Below are positions 1 through 10,570 of a stretch of DNA of 10,570 bases, piece by piece. Under the pieces are notes generated by a model. The model ran no database searches and was not told the origin of the DNA. It saw nothing but the letters and a program-made list of their open reading frames with translations. Every line of letters starts with the position of its first letter. The stretch's first letter is position 1. This DNA comes from Nitrosomonas sp. (GTDB lineage: Bacteria > Pseudomonadota > Gammaproteobacteria > Burkholderiales > Nitrosomonadaceae). Position numbers and translations under genes: made by a program. The DNA lies in the NCBI GenBank assembly GCA_029881855.1, contig JAOULU010000030.1, positions 1 to 10,570 on the forward strand. The letters are read 5' to 3'.

Positions 1-570
1 GAATAAATCACCTTCATTATAGGGCTGACCATTCTTGAGAAAATAATCAGCGCCAGATTTTGATTCGACACTATGGAATGCTTCTATTTCACGTTGCTGT
101 AACTTATGTTGAAGGTTGGTAATGGTATAGCCGGTTCTGGCGATTTCTATGGCAGGTTCAAGAATTGTTTTCCAACGTAACTTGCCGTAACGAAAGTGCA
201 TGTGACCAAGAACTGCAGGCGTACTAGGAACCGTTGTTGCTCGATACCCCGTAAATCGCTCTGGTTTTTCGATGCTATCTATGTGTGTCAAGGAAGGAAC
301 GCGACTAGAGCCATCGATGGCGATTGTTTTGCCATTAATATGCATGAGCGCCATGGATTGGCCACCGATGCCGCTGGCTTGTGGTTCACATACGCATAGT
401 GCAAAGGCTGCGGCACAGGCGGCATCAATAGCGTTGCCACCTTGTTCCAGCATTTGTACGCCGGCTGCTGTTGCCTCCGGAAATGCGGTGGAAACCATGC
501 CTTTTGTTGAGACGGCCGATTTTCCGTCTTTACTAGGACGAAATTTTTTCTCAACGGTATTAATAATCAT
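1..570 (-). CDS. Gamma-glutamyltranspeptidase-like Ntn-hydrolase, N-terminal 190 residues (3' end outside window)
   Basis: The frame is open from an ATG at 570 to the left edge, so this is a partial gene. Family blocks occur in the expected order: GMVSTAFPEATAAG (about residues 24-37), LEQGGNAIDAACAAA (41-55), EPQASGIGGQSMALM (62-76), a DGSSRVPS loop (87-94), VPSTPAVLGHMHFRYGKL (115-132), LEPAIEIARTGYTIT (137-151), then a block ending FLKNGQPYNEGDLF at the edge. The family (roughly 530-580 residues) autoprocesses at a Thr that lies beyond the window, then hydrolyses or transfers gamma-glutamyl groups, or in some branches acts as an acylase. The DGSxRxP loop differs from the DxRExAP form of classical E. 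coli-type GGT, so the substrate may differ. There is no signal peptide, so it is probably cytoplasmic. The ATG overlaps the stop of the ligase gene (ATGA), implying translational coupling. Family assignment is firm; substrate is unknown. Confidence 0.9.
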   Translation of the reverse strand, partial: MIINTVEKKFRPSKDGKSAVSTKGMVSTAFPEATAAGVQMLEQGGNAIDAACAAAFALCVCEPQASGIGGQSMALMHINGKTIAIDGSSRVPSLTHIDSIEKPERFTGYRATTVPSTPAVLGHMHFRYGKLRWKTILEPAIEIARTGYTITNLQHKLQQREIEAFHSVESKSGADYFLKNGQPYNEGDLF

Positions 571-2774
571 GACTTGAAATTTTTTGCGGCTTTATGGATA
601 GTCAGTGCCAATAAAACTGCTCTATCAATCAGGCTATCACGAACCACATATTCATCTTTTCTTCCGATATTGCCAGTGACAGGACCAAACCCATCAAGCG
701 ATGGAATCTCATCTGGCACATGGCTTAGCGAGGTGCCAATATCACCATGTGATTTTTTTGTGCGAACCTCGACAATTTCTGCCAGCTGTTCAATTTTTTT
801 ATAAAAAATTAAATCTTCTTCGGATTCCAATAGCGGCCTACGTTGATGTCCGCGAGTAATATGAACGTGAATAGGCCATTTGGGTTCGGATTTGAATAAC
901 CGGTAAACCTCTTTCTCAAGATTATCTTTTTGATGAGGTTGTGGATAGTGAATACGGAATGAAAGCGATACATGATCGGGTGCGGTGTCTTCACCACCTT
1001 TGGTTGTTATGTTGGTGGAGATGACCGAAATACCGGTTTCATCGCTACCAATCTTATGAAGCTTTGGTATTTTATCACTGACATAAAGCAACGGGTCCGT
1101 TTGTTTACTCGTTAATTTTGCATTAACTTTCTCTGAAGATCGATTAATTTCAATACTGTAACGTAAGACGCCTGAACAAGAGGTGATAATTTCCCCGGCT
1201 AGACCTGCGCCGCTCAGGCCAATGACATATGAGGATTTTCTGGAAAGATCTTCAATCAGCGGCTTGGAAGAGCGACCACTGAGTGATTCGTCAGAGATAA
1301 GAAGAATACCGCATTTTACTTTCTTTAAGCTTCGAGTGTAATGTAGCGCTCGCAAGGCGCTAAGCAAAGTGGCCAACCCTCCTTTTCCTCGGGATACGCC
1401 TGAGCCATATATTCTTCCACGTTCTTCATAAAAGGGTACAAAATCAGAGAAGGGAATGGCATTGTCCAAGTTGCCCAAGATCAAAATATCATTATGATCA
1501 TTGGTGTGATTGCTGAAATATAAATTATTGGCAAATTCTGCACGAGGAAAAACATGTCGTTGAAATTTGAAATTCTGAATTTGATTGGCAAGCCAGCGAC
1601 CAAATGAATTAATACCTTCAATATTGTGAACATAAGAATTGATACTGACCATTTTGGCAAGATCTTCTTCCATAGTACCTAGATTGCCTCGTAGGAAGCT
1701 TCTAAGACGTACATTAATTGGCGGTTTGTTGTGTTTTGTTTCACTTTGAGCGAGTAGTTTCTCGTCAGTTGATACCTGATCAATTTGCTGGCTTCCAAAA
1801 TAGCGCTCGACAGCGACATTTAGCATACGATTAACCAAAGATTCATAGGTGTATCCAGCTGCCTTCGCTGCGGTTACATAGGAGCCTGTAAAACCTAGGC
1901 TTGCCATGGAGTTTAATTCGAGCACAAAGAGATTGTTATGCTCGTCCATACGGAAATCAATTCGGCAGAAGTCATAAATACCTAACACACGGGCTGTTTC
2001 TTTGGCCAGCCGTCTCAATTCTTCGGCTAGTTTGTCATCAACCAGTGCAGGGCATATCTTTGCTTTGGGTGTTCTCAGTTTATCATCCAGGCTTTGGATG
2101 GCATTGGGATCTCCTTCCAAATCAATCTCTACAATAGGTAAGGTTTCAGGGTCTTGGTTACCAAGAATACCGACGGCAAATTCACGCCCCGGAATGAACT
2201 TTTCCACTAAAACAGGCTGATTAAATTCATTGACTAAATTGCTGATAGCTTTTTGCAGTGCTTTTTTGTTATCGATCACCTCAATGCCCATGGATACGGC
2301 TTCCATTTTTGGCTTTATGATGACTGGGTAGGGCAGATTGTCTGGAACCAGGTCAGGTGACATGAGAACCCAGAAAGGTGCTGTTGGGAGTCCGCTTGAT
2401 TCAAGCATCATTTTGGTGGTGACTTTATCTAAGGCGACACCATGACCGGCAGGGCTTGAACCAACATAAGGGATGCCACTCATTTCTAGCAAAGAAGGAA
2501 TGTGCGTGTAGCGACTGACGCCCTGCAAACCATAGGCCATATTAAAAACCATGCCAGGCTTCTCACCCTGAACAACCCGGGGCATAAAATCAATCAGTTT
2601 TTCAATGACATTGATGTTGCCTTCAATGATGCGTACATTATGTCCGCCTTTTTCCAAAGCTGCGGCAACCCGCTCAACGGTTTGTGGGTTATAGACTTCT
2701 TTATTTTGCATACCGAAAACATTGATGACACCTTCCACATCTTGGCTTTTATTGTAAATAACCGCAACTCTCAT
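567..2774 (-). CDS. Two-domain protein: D-Ala-D-Ala-ligase-like ATP-grasp domain fused to degenerate M20 peptidase domain
   Basis: 735 residues from the ATG at 2774, chosen over a TTG at 2813 because AAGGA lies 7 bases before it and homologous sequence begins at MRVAVIYN. Residues 1-327 are an ATP-grasp ligase: LDKVTTK (K117), KPKMEAVSMGI (154-164), VEKFIPGREFAVGIL (190-204), and the metal/ATP set D273, E286, N288 in RIDFRM and LELNS, spaced as in DdlB. The Ddl N-terminal HGGxSxE substrate motif and the NTxPGMT motif are absent, so it probably joins another amino acid or peptide. A polar linker (about 328-352) leads to an M20 fold (353-735) with recognisable GNLDN, GSGVSRGKGG, SDES and PSLDGFGPV blocks, but the zinc ligands are gone (H to N435, D to R462, E to S497, the E near 520 to S/L, H to G704). 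This half is probably non-catalytic: a binding or structural domain. Coupled to the GGT-like gene by ATGA; 75 bases after the channel gene. Confidence 0.85.
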   Translation of the reverse strand: MRVAVIYNKSQDVEGVINVFGMQNKEVYNPQTVERVAAALEKGGHNVRIIEGNINVIEKLIDFMPRVVQGEKPGMVFNMAYGLQGVSRYTHIPSLLEMSGIPYVGSSPAGHGVALDKVTTKMMLESSGLPTAPFWVLMSPDLVPDNLPYPVIIKPKMEAVSMGIEVIDNKKALQKAISNLVNEFNQPVLVEKFIPGREFAVGILGNQDPETLPIVEIDLEGDPNAIQSLDDKLRTPKAKICPALVDDKLAEELRRLAKETARVLGIYDFCRIDFRMDEHNNLFVLELNSMASLGFTGSYVTAAKAAGYTYESLVNRMLNVAVERYFGSQQIDQVSTDEKLLAQSETKHNKPPINVRLRSFLRGNLGTMEEDLAKMVSINSYVHNIEGINSFGRWLANQIQNFKFQRHVFPRAEFANNLYFSNHTNDHNDILILGNLDNAIPFSDFVPFYEERGRIYGSGVSRGKGGLATLLSALRALHYTRSLKKVKCGILLISDESLSGRSSKPLIEDLSRKSSYVIGLSGAGLAGEIITSCSGVLRYSIEINRSSEKVNAKLTSKQTDPLLYVSDKIPKLHKIGSDETGISVISTNITTKGGEDTAPDHVSLSFRIHYPQPHQKDNLEKEVYRLFKSEPKWPIHVHITRGHQRRPLLESEEDLIFYKKIEQLAEIVEVRTKKSHGDIGTSLSHVPDEIPSLDGFGPVTGNIGRKDEYVVRDSLIDRAVLLALTIHKAAKNFKS

Positions 2775-2781
2775 GAGTGAG

Positions 2782-2786
2782 TCCTT
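2782..2786 (-). promoter_or_regulatory. Ribosome binding site AAGGA that fixes the ligase start
   Basis: AAGGA on the minus strand sits 7 bases before the ATG at 2774. No comparable site precedes the in-frame TTG at 2813, which would add 13 residues unlike the family N-terminus. A short hairpin (GAGGA, 5-base loop, TCCTC at 2797-2811) lies just upstream, and its TCCT could alternatively pair with this AAGGA. Confidence 0.7.
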
Positions 2787-2796
2787 AAAGAGTAAA

Positions 2797-2811
2797 GAGG
2801 AACTTGTCCTC
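2797..2811 (-). repeat. Short perfect hairpin just before the ligase ribosome binding site
   Basis: A 5-bp perfect inverted repeat, GAGGA / TCCTC with a 5-base loop, lies 10 bases upstream of the AAGGA of the ligase gene in the 75-base gap after the MscS-like gene. On the minus-strand transcript it is followed by TTTACTCTTT. It could be chance, a weak attenuator, or one of two alternative pairings involving the ribosome binding site. Confidence 0.3.
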
Positions 2812-2849
2812 AAGATATCGTATCAAATGAATCATAGAGATTAACTTTG

Positions 2850-3677
2850 TTAGCGCTTTTGGTAGGCTTGTTCTAAAACACCGCAAGTGATTTGTTGTTC
2901 TAACTCGGTTGCTTTTTCAGTTGGGCAAAAAACAATAATTGTGATTATATGCTTAGCATCTTCATTCGTGCTAATAATTATCCGCGGTTCAGCCCCTGGA
3001 AAATCCACGCCGGTATGTTTCTCTATATAAGTGTTATATCGTTTAGCGACTTCAATAAATTCAACGGAAAAACTATCAATCTCTGCGGCAATCCACTCGC
3101 ATAATTTGGCTATATTAACACCCGGTTCAATGACAATATCAAAGCTGTGAAACACGTAGCGTTTAGAGAAATTCAAGTTCTTTACAGGCTCGGATAAAAA
3201 CAGGCTATTAGGAACTACAATTGTTTTGCCTGTAAAGGTGTAATTATTTGGTTTTTTATCAAGTTCTTGTAAAGTTGTGGAGAATATATTGTAGTCAATG
3301 ACTTCACCTCGATGTGGCCCCACTTCTATCCAGTCATTAATAGAAAAGGTACCAGAGGCTGCGCGCAGTAATGCCCCACTAAAACACAAGATCAATTCTT
3401 TTGTGGCAATCACCAATGCTAGCGCTACGGCGGCAATTGAGAAAGCAAAGTTACTAAACTCTGGCCACCAAATACTAAACAAACCAAAAAAGATAATTAA
3501 CCAACTTAGGTTCTTAACTCGGGTTGACCACTGCCTTTGCCTTTCAGATAGTATGGCACTATTACGTTTGATGAGATGAATGAAGATAATTCGAACTAGC
3601 AACAACAGTATAATAAGTACACAACTTTGTAACGGTTTGCTGTTTAGCAGAATAATTGATAGTTCAAGATATGTCAT
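2850..3677 (-). CDS. Small MscS-family mechanosensitive channel
   Basis: 275 residues, close to the 286 of E. coli MscS. Hydrophobic segments at about 16-36, 57-71 and 75-108 fit the three-helix MscS plan. The third, small-residue-rich segment (FSIAAVALALVIATKELILCFSG) is the pore helix. It runs into the family's beta domain, FSINDWIEVGPHRGEVIDYN (111-130), and VVPNSLFLSEPVKNLNF (154-170), followed by a mixed alpha/beta cytoplasmic domain. Such inner-membrane channels open under membrane tension and release solutes on osmotic downshock. The ATG at 3677 has only AGGG immediately before it, so initiation may be weak; no better start is seen. A perfect 20-bp palindrome lies 22 bases upstream of the ATG. 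The gene is 75 bases upstream of the ligase gene on the same strand and may be cotranscribed with it. Family is confident; gating solute and link to the neighbours are inference. Confidence 0.85.
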   Translation of the reverse strand: MTYLELSIILLNSKPLQSCVLIILLLLVRIIFIHLIKRNSAILSERQRQWSTRVKNLSWLIIFFGLFSIWWPEFSNFAFSIAAVALALVIATKELILCFSGALLRAASGTFSINDWIEVGPHRGEVIDYNIFSTTLQELDKKPNNYTFTGKTIVVPNSLFLSEPVKNLNFSKRYVFHSFDIVIEPGVNIAKLCEWIAAEIDSFSVEFIEVAKRYNTYIEKHTGVDFPGAEPRIIISTNEDAKHIITIIVFCPTEKATELEQQITCGVLEQAYQKR

Positions 3678-3698
3678 AACCCTGGTTCAAAGATAAGT

Positions 3699-3718
3699 AT
3701 TGAATATTAATATTCAAT
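3699..3718. repeat. Perfect 20-bp palindrome upstream of the MscS-like gene
   Basis: Half-site ATTGAATATT followed immediately by its exact reverse complement, with no spacer. It lies 22 bases before the ATG of the MscS-like gene. A TATAAA-like -10 hexamer on the minus strand at 3728-3733 would place transcription start next to the palindrome, as for a repressor operator. No convincing -35 hexamer is seen. With only AT-rich pairs and no loop it is more plausible as a dimeric-regulator site than as an RNA terminator for cca; there is no T-run. Confidence 0.55.
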
Positions 3719-3860
3719 GTGGCGAAGTTTATATCATGCCTTAAATTTATGGCTTCCCGTAAGTTAGTTATTTTTTGTGTGATTATTTAGTTAAGAACCG
3801 TTTTAGTTATTATGTTGTATCTTTGGTATCTAGCAGTGCTTTGGCTTTATTGCGGCAAAC

Positions 3861-5102
3861 TTAGGTTTGTGATTTCAGCTCAGTTTTTATCCTGGCAATA
3901 CGCGCTTTGCGCACGTTGGCATTAATCACTTCAGCTAAACGCATTGTACCATCATGTTTTTCTTTTAGCTCGGCTGCAATTTCTCCGGCATTGACGCTGC
4001 TTGCGGCAACAAATGCTTGGGTCAATCGTTCTGATTGCGCGTAGTTTTTTTTAGCGTAGCCAGGGCGGCCATGGAAGTCACAGGCGCAGGCTTGCAGAAA
4101 CTCATTAAAACGATCTGGTTTACGGTAAGCGTCGACGGTTTGTAGGATGTCTGCGATGGTGGATGGTTTCAGCTCTGCCGCACGGTGGATATTGCTGTGA
4201 AAACGGGCAACCAGTATGGCCAGTTGACGGGCATCTTTGGGCGCTCGAATGCGTTCGCATAGTCCTTCGACTAATTCAATACTACGTGCTTCATGACCAA
4301 TATGGCGTGGCCATTCTTCGGGTGGCGTGGTGCCTTTACCCAGATCATGTGTGAGTGCGGCAAAACGAACCGGCAACGAGTAATTTTTTGCGGCCGCATG
4401 GTCGATGGCCAGCATGGTGTGCAAGCCGGTATCAATCTCCGGGTGGGCATGGGCGGGTTGCGGCACACCAAACAAGACATCCACTTCCGGCATGATGCGG
4501 GCCAGGGCACTACATTCACGCAATTGGTAAAGCATGCGGGAGGGATTGTCTTCCATTAATCCGCGTGAGATTTCTTGCCAGACGCGCTCTGGTACCAGTG
4601 CGTCCACTTCGCCGCTGTGTACCATGTCATTCATTAACTTCAAGGTTTCTGGCGCAATACGGAAGCTAAAACGTGCGGCAAAGCGTGCTGTTCTTAAAAT
4701 GCGTACGGGATCTTCGGAAAAAGCCGGGCTGATATGGCGCAAAATGCCAGCCTCCAAGTCGGCTACACCATTGAAGGGATCAATAATATTGCCATCTTGG
4801 TCTTTGGCGATGGCATTAATGGTTAAGTCGCGTCGTGCCAGGTCTTCTTGTAATGTGACGTTGGGTGAGGTAAATACCTCAAACCCTTTGTAGCCACGGG
4901 AGACTTTGCGCTCGGTTCGTGCTAGTGCATATTGTTCATGTGTCTTGGGATGTAGAAAAACAGGGAAGTCCTTGCCGACTGGGCGGTAGCCTAGCTGAGT
5001 CATTTCTTCCGGGGTAGAGCCCACTACAACATAGTCGTGATCTTTGACTGGAAGACCTAATAGCTCATCACGGACAGAGCCACCAATTAAATAAGTTTTC
5101 AA
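3861..5102 (-). CDS. cca: CCA-adding tRNA nucleotidyltransferase with HD domain
   Basis: 413 residues, matching the E. coli enzyme (412). It adds or repairs the 3'-CCA of tRNAs from CTP and ATP without a nucleic acid template. Visible class II motifs: GGSVRDELLG (7-16), catalytic D21 and D23 in KDHDYVVVG, the RRDLTINA signature (90-97), and EDPVRILRTARFAARF (130-145). The C-terminal HD phosphohydrolase domain has THDLGKGT (251-258) and further His residues (H228, H267, H270), as in proteobacterial bifunctional Cca with phosphatase/phosphodiesterase activity. The start must be the TTG at 5102: an in-frame TAA lies at 5112-5114 and the next Met would remove the catalytic aspartates. No clear ribosome binding site precedes it, and it begins 17 bases after slt, so reinitiation after slt is likely. 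Confidence 0.96.
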   Translation of the reverse strand: MKTYLIGGSVRDELLGLPVKDHDYVVVGSTPEEMTQLGYRPVGKDFPVFLHPKTHEQYALARTERKVSRGYKGFEVFTSPNVTLQEDLARRDLTINAIAKDQDGNIIDPFNGVADLEAGILRHISPAFSEDPVRILRTARFAARFSFRIAPETLKLMNDMVHSGEVDALVPERVWQEISRGLMEDNPSRMLYQLRECSALARIMPEVDVLFGVPQPAHAHPEIDTGLHTMLAIDHAAAKNYSLPVRFAALTHDLGKGTTPPEEWPRHIGHEARSIELVEGLCERIRAPKDARQLAILVARFHSNIHRAAELKPSTIADILQTVDAYRKPDRFNEFLQACACDFHGRPGYAKKNYAQSERLTQAFVAASSVNAGEIAAELKEKHDGTMRLAEVINANVRKARIARIKTELKSQT

Positions 5103-5119
5103 TTTGAATGGTTATATAG

Positions 5120-7033
5120 TTATTTTGAATTAACGATTCCTAGACGATGCTTTAGTGTTGGTGCATTCCGGCCATGCTCCAAGACTTTAGAATAATAGAT
5201 GGAGTTCTTCAAAACTTTCTTAACATAGTCGCGTGTTTCATTAAACGGAATTGTTTCAGCATAGATAGCACCTTCTAACTGATGAGTGCTGTCACGCCAT
5301 TGATCTGCTCGTACTGGACCGGCATTATAAGCGGCTGAGGCTAATAGCGGTTGGTTATCAAACGTTGTGAGGACATGTTTTAGATAATATGCGCCCATTT
5401 TTAGGTTTGTATTAATATCCACAATAAGGTTTTGTCGGAAATTGCGCATGCCCAATCTGTTGGCCACCCATTTGGCAGTATCTGGCATTATTTGCATTAG
5501 GCCCATCGCACCAGCACTTGACCTAATGTCAGAGTTGAAACGACTTTCTTGGCGAATTAGACCATATACCCAGGCCTCATCAAGTTCATGGGGTTGTAGC
5601 GCAAGTTTCATTGAATCACGATGTGGTGCTAGAAAGCGTAGATTAAAATTATGTTGCGAGACGGTTCTGTTGGCTGCATTAATAGCGCGCTCATATAAAC
5701 CGTGACGACGTGCGATTTCTGAAGCAGCCAGTAACTCTCTATCATTGAGGTATCGTACTACCCATACCCACTCACGGTAAGCCTCTGCACGAAGATTTAG
5801 TTTATAAAAAGCCAGTGTACGTTGAATTTCTGGTCTTTGTAGCATGGCGTTAATTTCTGTTGCGCTAGGTTCGTATAATTGATCGGGTATGTTCAGTATC
5901 GTACCCAATTCCTCTTTCGCCAATTGCCCATAAAAACTGTGATGGGTGCTTAATGATGCGAACAGGGCATCAGCTTCTAGCGTCACGCCAATTGCTTTAA
6001 GTGCACGTGCTTTCCAATACTGCCAAGTGTCAATTTGTTGTTTAGAAGCAGACATGCTTTCAATACTGTTTAGTACGATATTCCAATTTTGTGCACGCAG
6101 AGCAGCACGTGTCTTCCATGCAAGCATGGTGTCAGTAAATGGATAAGGTGTAGCAGAATGGGTTGCTCTAATGAACCAATTTAGGGCGCGTGAATCATGT
6201 CTAAGTGTCGCATGATAGGCTAGTTTTCCTAGGAAATAGGATTGATCAGATGGTGTTAGTTGATTTTCTACTCTTAACCAATAGGCATAAGCTTGATTGG
6301 TGTCATTGCGAAGCAAACGTAGCAGTGCAAATAAAACAATTTCACGGTTGGCACGTGACAGTTTTTTGTTATGTTGTGTTTTTAGATAGTGCAGTGGGTC
6401 TTGCGCGGCAGCATTTAGTTGGTCTGTATTGAGTGTCTCATGGCTTGGAATGTAGTAGTTTATATGCCGTGCCACTCCTGTTTGCCCAGCTTCCAATGCC
6501 AGCCGTAGACGTGCCCAAACCTCATCTATAGAGATTCTTCCGCTGTAGATAAGCGTATCAAATACGGGAGTACAGCTATCTGGCAGGCTATCAGCCGTAA
6601 ACCATAATGGGCGTGCATCAACCAGTACGGTAGGGTCTTCTGCATGGATGCGTTGTTGATAAGCGTAGCAGTTTAGTTCTATATCTGTATTCACCAGCGC
6701 TGGGTATTCTTCGCCAAACAGTTTCCACTGTTGATTCTTGCCCAATATTTTTAGCCATTCTGCACGTAATCTATCAGCCATTACGCTGTTTTTATGCTTA
6801 GTAAGAAATGCCCGGATTGTTGTTACATCTTTATCTTCTAATTCTAAGCGTAACTGATAAAAATCTAGGTAATCGGCTAAAATATGGTTTTGGAAGTGCT
6901 TGGCATAATTTGCCAAGAGGACTGAGTTTCCTGCCTGAAAGGCTTTACGCGCAGCAATAAAATCAGCACCTTGGTCAGCTGAAAGCGTCCCAAAATAAAG
7001 AAATAGTAATAATCCAGTTAGATATCTTTTCAT
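5120..7033 (-). CDS. slt: Periplasmic soluble lytic murein transglycosylase (Slt family)
   Basis: 637 residues from the ATG at 7033; a TTG at 7045 is also in frame, but MKRYLTGLLLFLYFGTLSA-DQ forms a clean Sec signal peptide with cleavage after residue 19. Residues of about 25-440 are a helical superhelix of the Slt70 type. The catalytic goose-type lysozyme-like domain follows: LIRQESRFNSD with catalytic Glu at about 496, SSAGAMGLMQIMPDTA, NLKMGAYYL, SAAYNAGP and FNETRDYVKKVLKN. The enzyme cleaves the MurNAc-GlcNAc bond of peptidoglycan to give 1,6-anhydro-muropeptides. The length agrees with the family (about 640). The next gene, cca, begins 17 bases after its stop, so the two are probably one transcript. 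No strong ribosome binding site is visible. Confidence 0.95.
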   Translation of the reverse strand: MKRYLTGLLLFLYFGTLSADQGADFIAARKAFQAGNSVLLANYAKHFQNHILADYLDFYQLRLELEDKDVTTIRAFLTKHKNSVMADRLRAEWLKILGKNQQWKLFGEEYPALVNTDIELNCYAYQQRIHAEDPTVLVDARPLWFTADSLPDSCTPVFDTLIYSGRISIDEVWARLRLALEAGQTGVARHINYYIPSHETLNTDQLNAAAQDPLHYLKTQHNKKLSRANREIVLFALLRLLRNDTNQAYAYWLRVENQLTPSDQSYFLGKLAYHATLRHDSRALNWFIRATHSATPYPFTDTMLAWKTRAALRAQNWNIVLNSIESMSASKQQIDTWQYWKARALKAIGVTLEADALFASLSTHHSFYGQLAKEELGTILNIPDQLYEPSATEINAMLQRPEIQRTLAFYKLNLRAEAYREWVWVVRYLNDRELLAASEIARRHGLYERAINAANRTVSQHNFNLRFLAPHRDSMKLALQPHELDEAWVYGLIRQESRFNSDIRSSAGAMGLMQIMPDTAKWVANRLGMRNFRQNLIVDINTNLKMGAYYLKHVLTTFDNQPLLASAAYNAGPVRADQWRDSTHQLEGAIYAETIPFNETRDYVKKVLKNSIYYSKVLEHGRNAPTLKHRLGIVNSK

Positions 7034-7090
7034 GATCAGGATCAACTAAATGTGACATGTCAAAAGAATGATCAAACACTAAATATATTG

Positions 7091-7141
7091 CTAGCTTATT
7101 ACTAAAGCTAGATTACCGCAGCCTCGACTGCGATAGTCTAG
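7091..7141 (-). terminator. Two overlapping hairpins between gdhA and slt; possible gdhA terminator
   Basis: Arms at 7108-7121 and 7128-7141 (CTAGATTACCGCAG / CTGCGATAGTCTAG) pair over 14 positions with one mismatch and one G-T wobble around a 6-base loop. A second perfect 7-bp inverted repeat (CTAGCTT at 7091-7097, AAGCTAG at 7105-7111) shares the CTAG at 7108-7111, so the two stems are mutually exclusive. On the minus strand the large stem lies about 75 bases past the gdhA stop and is followed by CTTTAG, a poor U-tract. It may end gdhA transcription, stabilise its 3' end, or act in the slt leader. Confidence 0.5.
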
Positions 7142-7214
7142 GTATTAAATTTGTATTTCCTTCTTCTACTCTCCTCGAATTGCGGGAGGTTTGTATTACT
7201 GGCGATATAAAAAA

Positions 7215-8558
7215 TCAGGTAACACCCTGGCCTAACATCGCATCAGCTACTTTGACGAAACCAGCAATGTTGGCGCCGTCAACATAATTCACACTGCCGT
7301 CAGGTTTGGTGCCATATTGTAAACAAGACTTATGAATCGCTTGCATAATCTCAAGTAGTCGTGCATCAACTTCATCATGTGTCCAGGCAAGACGCATGGC
7401 ATGCTGGCTCATTTCTAGACCAGAGGTCGCTACACCACCCGCATTACTTGCTTTACCCGGCGCATAAAGGACATTATTGTTATGGAAACACTCTACTGCT
7501 TCTACAGTTGAGGGCATATTCGCGCCTTCTGCGACACAAATTACGCCATTATTTACTAGAGTTTGTGCATCGTTTCCACTGATTTCATTTTGAGTGGCAC
7601 AAGGTAGCGCAACATCAACAGGCACATGCCAAGGCTTGGTGTTTGGTGCAAAGCTGGCATTGACACGTTTTGCGTATTCATCGACTCGCGCATATAAATG
7701 ATTTTTTACTTCCGATAAGATTGCTAATTTTTCAGTAGTGAACCCATCTTCATCAATCACTGTACCACTTGAGTCTGAAACGGTGACGACTTTAGCTCCC
7801 AGCGCCATGGCTTTTTCAACGGCAAATTGGGCGACATTACCTGAACCAGAGATGGAAACACGTAGACCATTAAAAGAGCGTCCCGCATGTTTTAGGACTT
7901 CTTCAGCAAAATATACGGTGCCATAGCCTGTTGCTTCAGGGCGCACCAGAGATCCACCAAAACTGAGGCCTTTTCCGGTAAAGATACAATCAGACTGATT
8001 AGCCAGTTTCTTTACCATGCCTGCCATATAGCCGACTTCACGTCCACCAACACCAATGTCACCAGCGGGAACATCGGTATTTGACCCAACGTGACGGAAA
8101 AGCTCGCTTGCGTAGGCTTGGCAGAAACGCATAATTTCTCCCGGGCTTTTTCCTTTAGGATCAAAATCTGAACCGCCTTTACCGCCACCCATGGGTAGTG
8201 TTGTTAAAGCGTTTTTAAAGGTTTGTTCAAATGCCAGGAATTTTAAGATGGAAAGATTTACTGATGGGTGGAAACGTGTACCCCCTTTATATGGACCAAT
8301 CGAAGAGCTATGTTGTATACGATAACCACGATTAACTTTAACTTCTCCTTGATCACTTACCCAGGCTACACGAAAAATAATGACGCGCTCTGGTTCTACC
8401 AGGCGATCTAATACGCCATGTTCTGCATAGCGCGGATTCTCCGTGATGAAAGGCCACAAGCTTTCCATGACTTCGTTGACCGCTTGTATAAATTCTGGTT
8501 GAACTGGATTACGTTCAGCAACATACTCGCTGAACTCCTGAAAACTCTGATATTTCAT
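7215..8558 (-). CDS. gdhA: NADP-specific glutamate dehydrogenase
   Basis: 447 residues, the same length as E. coli GdhA. It catalyses reductive amination of 2-oxoglutarate with ammonium and NADPH to glutamate in the cytoplasm; the usual assembly is a homohexamer. Visible residues: SSSIGPYKGGTRFHPSV (84-100) with K91, LPMGGGKGGSDFDP (121-134) with catalytic K127, NTDVPAGDIGVGGRE (160-174) with D167, the dinucleotide-binding GSGNVAQFA (238-246), SDSSGTV after the second strand (261-267, typical of NADP-type enzymes), and EGANMPST and APGKASNAGGVA near the end. The ATG at 8558 has GGGGA 7 bases upstream. It is divergent from the dioxygenase gene across a 223-base AT-rich gap that must hold its promoter; I found no convincing hexamer pair. 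It may be monocistronic, given the hairpins after it. Confidence 0.97.
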   Translation of the reverse strand: MKYQSFQEFSEYVAERNPVQPEFIQAVNEVMESLWPFITENPRYAEHGVLDRLVEPERVIIFRVAWVSDQGEVKVNRGYRIQHSSSIGPYKGGTRFHPSVNLSILKFLAFEQTFKNALTTLPMGGGKGGSDFDPKGKSPGEIMRFCQAYASELFRHVGSNTDVPAGDIGVGGREVGYMAGMVKKLANQSDCIFTGKGLSFGGSLVRPEATGYGTVYFAEEVLKHAGRSFNGLRVSISGSGNVAQFAVEKAMALGAKVVTVSDSSGTVIDEDGFTTEKLAILSEVKNHLYARVDEYAKRVNASFAPNTKPWHVPVDVALPCATQNEISGNDAQTLVNNGVICVAEGANMPSTVEAVECFHNNNVLYAPGKASNAGGVATSGLEMSQHAMRLAWTHDEVDARLLEIMQAIHKSCLQYGTKPDGSVNYVDGANIAGFVKVADAMLGQGVT

Positions 8559-8781
8559 TTCAATTTCCCCGATTAAATAATGGTTTTTAGCGAATACTCA
8601 ATTCTGCCAAATTAATTCATAAGCTGCACTGTATTTTTGTAAAAAAACAGGAGAATTAATTAAGTTTTTTTAATTTAAGCAGACACCAATAATTTTTATA
8701 TTAAAAATATGTAGATTTTAAGAAATTTTCATGTCTATAGTATTGTCTGAAGTTAAGGAAGCTTATCAACGTTAATATCCC
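8559..8781. promoter_or_regulatory. Divergent intergenic region between gdhA and the dioxygenase gene
   Basis: 223 very AT-rich bases hold the 5' regions of both outward-reading genes. AATTAATT occurs twice (8610-8617 and 8654-8661), 44 bases apart, about four helical turns. A plus-strand TATAGT at 8736-8741 could be a -10 box for the dioxygenase gene, but the -35 match (TAGATT at 8712) is poor. AAGGAAG at 8756-8762 is about 19 bases from the dioxygenase ATG, too far for a normal ribosome binding site. No riboswitch or small gene is evident. Confidence 0.4.
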
Positions 8782-9447
8782 ATGAAAAAAATTTCTAGAA
8801 GAAACCTCATTAAATTTGGCATGCTGGGCAGTCTGACCAGCCTGCTTAGTATTAGTAATGGTAGTATCGCAAGGATTCTAGCAATATCACCAGCTCCAAC
8901 GCCCAGTGAGGTTGAAGGTCCGTTTTATCCCGTTGCAAATCAGTTAGACAAAGATGCTGATTTAACAAAAATTAAAGGCCAAAATGGCTTGGCCAAGGGT
9001 CAGCATATCATTATTAGCGGTCAAGTTAGGGATATAACAGGCCAATCAGTTAAAAATGCCATCATTGAAATTTGGCAGGCTAATGCTAATGGTCGGTATC
9101 ATCATCCGCGTGACACCAATGTGGCACCACTGGATCCAAATTTCCAAGGCTGGGCAATTATTAGCAGTGTGCAGGATGGTTTATTTCGTTTTAAAACGGT
9201 TATTCCTGGCGCTTATCCCGCAACAAAAAACTGGATAAGACCACCACATATCCATATGAAGATTTCTAAACAAGGTTTTCCGACGTTGGTTACTCAAATG
9301 TATTTTCCTGACGAGCAATTAAATAAAACGGATTTATTATTGAGCAATAAACATACTACAGAGCGATCTTTAATGATGGCGAAAAAAATTGTTCGGCAAG
9401 GAAATTTAGATATTTACGAGTACAATATTGTGCTGAGGAAGCATTGA
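8782..9447 (+). CDS. Tat-exported intradiol ring-cleavage dioxygenase
   Basis: 221 residues of the protocatechuate 3,4-dioxygenase beta-like / catechol 1,2-dioxygenase family, which opens catecholic rings between the two hydroxyls using non-haem Fe(III). All four iron ligands appear to be present: Y106 (GRYHH), Y145 (PGAYP), H156 and H158 (RPPHIHMKI); R153 sits where the family has its active-site Arg. EGPFYP (45-50), IEIWQANANG (95-104) and TQMYFPDE (171-178) are further family blocks. The N-terminus, SRRNLIKF (5-12) plus a hydrophobic stretch to about residue 24, is a twin-arginine signal, so the enzyme is probably exported folded. There is no lipobox Cys. The ATG is the first start after an in-frame TAA at 8773-8775; the ribosome binding site is weak. 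It ends with in-frame tandem stops TGA TAA. The substrate cannot be read; no other aromatic catabolic gene is nearby. Confidence 0.88.
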   Translation: MKKISRRNLIKFGMLGSLTSLLSISNGSIARILAISPAPTPSEVEGPFYPVANQLDKDADLTKIKGQNGLAKGQHIIISGQVRDITGQSVKNAIIEIWQANANGRYHHPRDTNVAPLDPNFQGWAIISSVQDGLFRFKTVIPGAYPATKNWIRPPHIHMKISKQGFPTLVTQMYFPDEQLNKTDLLLSNKHTTERSLMMAKKIVRQGNLDIYEYNIVLRKH

Positions 9448-9507
9448 TAAGCTCATGAATCGTTGGAAGGATAGATTTAACGCTTCTTTAACCGCTTAGT
9501 CACTTAG

Positions 9508-10520
<1,013 letters not shown>

Positions 10521-10529
10521 GTTAGAATT

Positions 10530-10570
10530 GTGCGGGAGGATAAGGAGTCTGAGTCAGATTCACTTGAGGA
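10530..10570 (+). CDS. Possible start of a downstream gene (13 codons in window)
   Basis: A GTG at 10530, 9 bases after the trxB stop, opens a frame that stays open to the right edge and encodes a highly charged start (VREDKESESDSLE). An acidic and polar N-terminus next to trxB would fit a small Smr-domain protein, which I recall as a frequent neighbour of trxB in betaproteobacteria, but there is too little sequence to show it. GGAGG and AAGGAG inside this stretch (10535-10547) could instead be a ribosome binding site for a start further on. Treat as a weak candidate. Confidence 0.3.
   Translation, partial: MREDKESESDSLE

Follow-up and report, generated by a model that had tools for sequence, protein, structure and literature searches.

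We describe here a fusion gene at the left end of a 10,570-nucleotide stretch of Nitrosomonas sp. DNA (assembly GCA_029881855.1, contig JAOULU010000030.1, positions 1 to 10,570; hereafter the window, from a genome that is 83% complete). The encoded protein combines an ATP-grasp ligase half with an M20 peptidase half in which all five metal ligands have been replaced, and none of the 46 family members aligned with it retains the complete ligand set. Overall, the data give good support to the view that the M20 half is a retained pseudo-enzyme, i.e., a domain that has been kept and repurposed, and not one broken gene.

Loss of the metal ligands across the family

The C-terminal half of the fusion has the sequence profile (PF01546, 48.2 bits) and fold of M20 enzymes of the carboxypeptidase G2 (CPG2) type. 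A first-pass annotation, made from the sequence alone, had claimed that every zinc-ligand position of this half is substituted while D437 and the general-base Glu, E496, remain, and the alignments bear this out: N435, R462, S497, S521, and G704 stand where the M20 ligands His, Asp, Glu, Glu (or Asp), and His belong (H112, D141, E176, E200, and H385). Compared with CPG2 itself (1cg2; M20 family), the fusion thus has all five ligands replaced, as well as H229, which we take to be the transition-state His of the M20 dimerization domain, and carries an attached ATP-grasp ligase. The H229 position is Lys in the window protein and His in only 1/46 family members, versus 9/9 reference M20s. The general-base position (E175) is Glu in just 18/46 members.

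All five ligands are kept by 0/46 members versus eight of the nine references, a set preselected for part of the ligands since the pattern used to define it requires HxD and DxK; the remaining reference, L123, carries Ile at E176. Among the 46, the E176 column reads Ser (28), Thr (12), Gly (3), Leu (2), or Ala (1), and the E200 column Ser (21), Asn (7), Gly (5), Gln (5), Arg (4), or His (4). H112 is retained in 12 members, D141 in 8, and H385 in 10 (one row without data), so that 32 members keep no canonical ligand, five keep one, two keep two, and seven keep three. The last seven are all archaeal, with Asn at the base, Thr at E176, and Ser at E200, a combination found in 9/9 archaeal members; these retain H112 (9/9), D141 (8/9), and the late His (8/8 readable). 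In the nitrifier clade, Ser at E176 and Gly at H385 are fixed (28/28), and the D141 position varies (Arg, His, Lys, Cys, Tyr, or Thr). No member seen thus retains E176 or E200; the other ligands have been lost clade by clade. We infer an order of ligand loss, with loss preceding the spread of the family. A lone decayed copy is ruled out.

These counts come from rows that are not independent; L005, L006, L007, L008, and L009, for example, are metagenome-assembled genomes (MAGs) of one isolate series. Outside the 46 are L015, L021, L022, and L023 (N-terminal halves or short fragments) and L046 (one internal stop), which was left unaligned; L012 lacks the late-His region. The references are those nine of the 34 fetched loci (L098 to L131) that met the pattern of motifs or its limit on length; among the remaining 25 are five fusions of the same family and M20 proteins missed by the pattern.

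No conserved cluster of His, Cys, or carboxylate residues that could replace the metal site was found among the C-half columns at least 90% conserved in the 46 members, where the only Asp, Glu, His, or Cys residues are E369, E413, D429, D437, and D495. The di-metal site of alternative residues that the first-pass annotation had allowed for hence has no family-conserved counterpart, a site private to the window protein lying outside the reach of this column test. That the domain might still be hydrolytic, with one metal or relocated ligands, appears highly improbable. The three ligands retained by archaeal members could hold a single ion and the window protein has its E496 and D437; however, no member keeps E176 or E200, the window protein lacks all five ligands, the base is Asn in archaeal members, and no replacement set of His, Cys, or carboxylate residues is conserved. 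The window protein is almost certainly not an active M20 hydrolase.

Selection and conservation of the former cleft

The ratio of nonsynonymous to synonymous divergence (dN/dS; NG86 method, 18 pairs, the C-half saturated in seven and no value for L080-L081) indicates purifying selection on the M20 half. For the five pairs whose dS is close to 1 or smaller, dN/dS was 0.044, 0.14, 0.081, 0.163, and 0.165; in five more with higher dS, and hence less reliable, it was 0.03 to 0.10. The M20 halves formed one clade apart from the nine references (support 100/98, 42 family rows, without L006, L008, L009, and L012). Three main clades were common to the M20-half and ligase-half trees, with L013 placed differently; in both trees the long branches, including L072, may sit in the wrong place.

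Columns at least 90% conserved are concentrated around the former motif positions, with 14/68 within six residues of them versus 24/317 elsewhere (Fisher P = 0.0028). Because some of these loop columns are shared with the references, the enrichment is support for, not proof of, a working cleft. Others are family specific: N438 is Asn in 42/46 members and Thr or Val in the references, and G522 is Gly in 43/46 members and Pro in 8/9 references. D437 and D495 are invariant (46/46). Domain placement in the whole-protein structure model was weak (pTM 0.53), and for this reason we claim no interdomain contact.

The ligase half

The N-terminal half matches the ATP-grasp profile (PF07478, 113.1 bits) and fold of D-alanine–D-alanine ligase (Ddl). 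It falls below the NCBIfam Ddl cutoffs (153.5 versus 243 bits and 136.2 versus 245.65 bits, among the best 25 of 79 matched families). It also differs from DdlB (8evy) at the acceptor loop, where NTxPG, presumably the Ddl motif, is replaced by NSMASL in the window protein and in 40/41 full-length fusions. A second stretch related to the ligase half is present in the same genome (G000:C273, 32% identity) and is perhaps its true Ddl. The subthreshold scores, the NSMASL loop, and this second stretch together make it unlikely that the fusion is the housekeeping Ddl.

Gene layout and neighborhood

The features at the left end of the window are listed in Table 1. The fusion reads from an ATG at 2774 to a stop codon at 567 to 569; relatives begin at this ATG, which was for that reason taken as the start, the frame opening earlier at TTG 2813. 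The ATG of the next gene overlaps the fusion stop codon (ATGA, 570 to 567). The 190 codons of that gene present in the window match PF01019 (123.3 bits) and score 115.7 bits against TIGR00066 (cutoff 357.85), only 190 amino acids being available for comparison. On the other side, 75 bases separate the channel gene from the fusion ATG. Farther away, at 8782 to 9447 on the plus strand, the window encodes a small intradiol-dioxygenase-type protein (PF00775) with a twin-arginine-like N terminus (RRNLIKF, by eye).

Table 1. Features at the left end of the window
Feature	Position	Strand	Remarks
GGT-family (N-terminal nucleophile amidohydrolase) gene, start	1..570	minus	Downstream of fusion; runs off the first base of the window
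Pseudo-M20 domain, residues 353-735 of fusion	570..1718	minus	CPG2 fold, none of five metal ligands
ATP-grasp ligase half, residues 1-326 of fusion	1797..2774	minus	D-Ala-D-Ala ligase fold
MscS-type mechanosensitive channel gene	2850..3677	minus	Directly upstream of fusion; PF00924, 49.1 bits

A GGT-family gene adjoins the fusion in 38/46 loci (on the downstream side in 37, on the upstream side in L080). In 33/46, a formylglutamate amidohydrolase (FGase; PF05013) gene is present at most 4 kb from the ligase half. In the five loci with the former and without the latter, the contig ends first in the window, L006, and L078, and no FGase was found near the fusion in L064 and L080. Four loci, from Propionigenium-type and clostridial genomes (L014, L017, L020, and L079), are without the GGT/FGase pair and have instead a class I glutamine amidotransferase directly upstream (PF00117 in L014). 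The last four (L010, L013, L072, and L081) have neither a GGT-family nor a glutamine amidotransferase neighbor. The TTH nucleophile pattern was present in 27/34 GGT-type open reading frames examined; of the other seven, that of L073 is broken by masked bases, the second copy in L092 is a paralogue, and five were unmatched by the simple pattern. No signal peptide was evident by eye at the GGT-type protein starts. In one locus (L038:132-569, L072:135-569), the fusion is followed by a 145-amino-acid open reading frame with a GGT-like start and an FGase-like end, as if the middle had been deleted, maybe through an assembly fault.

An MscS gene (PF00924) lies within 5 kb of the fusion in 6/21 genomes, with 0.28 expected from its density (P = 6e-7 if genomes are independent, P = 2e-4 if counted as four lineages), an association that is suggestive since the 21 were hand-picked after the gene-order table had been drawn up. 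A broader tblastn count found an MscS-type gene within about 6 kb in 14/46 loci and MgtE or CorA genes near the fusion in 12/46, both as raw counts. Genes for PF05618 proteins, which we take to be RimB/Rlo-like, or AstE are nearby in 5/46. Another amide-ligase gene set also occurs in fusion neighborhoods: Alpha-E and circularly permuted ATP-grasp genes in L008, L009, L064, L082, L090, and L091 (PF04168 and PF14403 in L082), joined in L082 and L091 by a proteasome-fold gene, presumably Anbu-like (PF00227, E = 6e-4, below its cutoff).

Distribution of the fusion

A scan of genome contigs yielded 19 loci. In whole-genome searches, the counts of which include each search's own seed genome, fusion/ligase matches were found in 13/125 genomes of the taxonomic family (all in one of four genera), 5/369 of a sample of the class (two of the five being ligases without the M20 half), 6/237 of an archaeal class, 2/98 of the phylum of Propionigenium, 23/77 Nitrospinota, and 3/291 of a clostridial class sample. 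Flanks were fetched for 15 of the 23 Nitrospinota genomes. In two same-class genomes the ligase is followed by the GGT gene with no M20 half between them (L073 [L039] and L074 [L040], the latter also with an FGase match).

Stop-free fusion frames in 12 other same-genus genomes and many further genomes, together with synonymous-biased divergence, rule out an assembly artifact; of the 12, G074 is a single contig, and G057 and G060 carry the fusion only in pieces. Misbinning of the window contig is also unlikely, as its lytic transglycosylase gene matches 7/7 same-genus genomes at 58 to 65% over nearly its full length. In 6/6 Nitrospinota genomes the same gene, the only one compared, gave partial matches of at most 39%.

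In the trees, the window fusion and L005 (both Nitrosomonas) group with the Nitrospinota sequence L007 (support 95/88 for the ligase half and 94/92 for the M20 half). Seven other same-genus sequences (L065 to L071) form their own clade in a Nitrospinota-rich group, apart from these three, and L064 also stands apart. These sequence relationships suggest that more than one operon transfer between ammonia and nitrite oxidizers is likely. L007, a MAG of the same isolate series as L005, may be misbinned.

Proposed role of the pseudo-M20 half

The first-pass annotation had read the domain as a retained pseudo-enzyme whose role is to bind a peptide product or to position substrate for the fused ligase. 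Its first part stands, on the loss of E176 and E200 in 46/46 members, purifying selection, a single clade, and an intact fold; the second, binding or positioning, is a role the domain may have. Read together with the gene order, the data point to a protein that looks bifunctional and would have a single activity. The ATP-grasp half, with its remodeled acceptor loop, would activate a carboxylate with ATP and join it to an amine. The pseudo-M20 half, its metal binding lost, would not hydrolyze the bond; it could supply a stable scaffold or dimerization surface and a cleft that holds substrate or product. Hydrolysis or transfer of the product would fall to the GGT- and FGase-type enzymes, and MscS, where present, would let the product out on osmotic downshift. 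The solute handled by the operon would most likely be a small amide or dipeptide-like compound, perhaps an osmolyte. We consider it reasonably probable that the protein is a single-activity ligase with a noncatalytic scaffold or clamp module at its C terminus, in an operon that makes, recycles, and releases an amide solute.

Several observations weigh against this reading. Cleft conservation names no ligand, and part of it near the ligand loops is common to the reference M20s, which, at nine, also form too small a set to rule out independent fusion events involving other M20s. The operon can carry the ligase with no M20 half attached (L039/L073 and L040/L074). No MscS gene matching PF00924 lies within 5 kb of the fusion in 15 of the 21 genomes, and these genomes, taken from a larger fusion-bearing set, are phylogenetically nonindependent. 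Finally, the C-half is the faster-evolving half in each of the eight pairs with both ratios, as could be expected of a loosely needed domain.

The faster evolution of the C-half would fit a structural relic, a dimerization scaffold with an empty cleft, as would the drift of ligand positions such as D141 in the nitrifier clade. This explanation is rather improbable, as it sits poorly with the fixation of Ser at E176 and Gly at H385 in the nitrifier clade and of Asn, Thr, and Ser at E175, E176, and E200 in archaeal members, with the invariance of D437 and D495, and with cleft loops conserved above the rest of the domain.

The main rival to the scaffold or clamp reading is a regulatory sensor, in which the finished solute or an amino acid would bind the pseudo-M20 half and switch the ligase off or on. 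Conservation of the cleft loops despite lost catalysis is consistent with such a sensor, as are the fusion of the domain to a biosynthetic step, often beside osmotic genes, and, if the regulator is optional, its absence from two ligases of this operon type. A literature search on pseudo-enzymes and M20 gave no precedent, and we rate a sensor as unlikely. A further, tentative idea, with the balance tipped against it, is a cross-domain osmoadaptation cassette of nitrifiers, archaea of the anaerobic methanotrophic (ANME) type, and anaerobic bacteria for an undescribed amide or dipeptide solute. In this cassette the former M20 half, now without metal, would clamp or sense the very type of bond that its ancestor cleaved, and the neighboring GGT- and FGase-type enzymes would have taken over hydrolysis.

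Relation to known systems and significance

Pseudo-enzymes are already known in the wider M20/M28 co-catalytic zinc clan, and the ligase fusion is a further variant. Nicastrin and the transferrin receptor are noncatalytic members used as binding domains; both are eukaryotic membrane proteins related to M28 and carry no ligase. The gene set of the N-acetylglutaminylglutamine amide (NAGGN) system, which serves a peptide osmolyte, likewise includes an ATP-grasp-type ligase together with a peptidase; that peptidase is a separate M42 protein, and the system is not known to have a fused pseudo-M20. The rlo/rim-type operons encode an ATP-grasp protein of the cytoplasm and, with it, an inactive transglutaminase, which are reported to act with secreted peptidases in osmotic stress (PMC12239564). 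They resemble the present operon in pairing an ATP-grasp protein with an inactive enzyme fold (RloB, the inactive transglutaminase) and in the osmotic link; in contrast, the dead domain of those operons belongs to a separate membrane protein and is a transglutaminase instead of a fused M20, and the ligase is another one (PMC12239564). The comparison is an analogy only. Our literature search, judged from titles and abstract openings, found no paper naming the fusion or the operon among those listed, so that an earlier mention is possible.

Profile-based annotation would be expected to label the fusion either a metallohydrolase or a D-Ala-D-Ala ligase, and neither label fits. Across the family, pseudo-enzyme decay forms a graded series, from archaeal members with two or three ligands to nitrifier-clade members with none or one. 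With the M20-less ligases as natural controls, what a dead hydrolase domain does for a ligase can be put to a direct test. If the osmotic link is true, the fusion would point to a yet undescribed solute of nitrifiers and of archaea that cycle methane.
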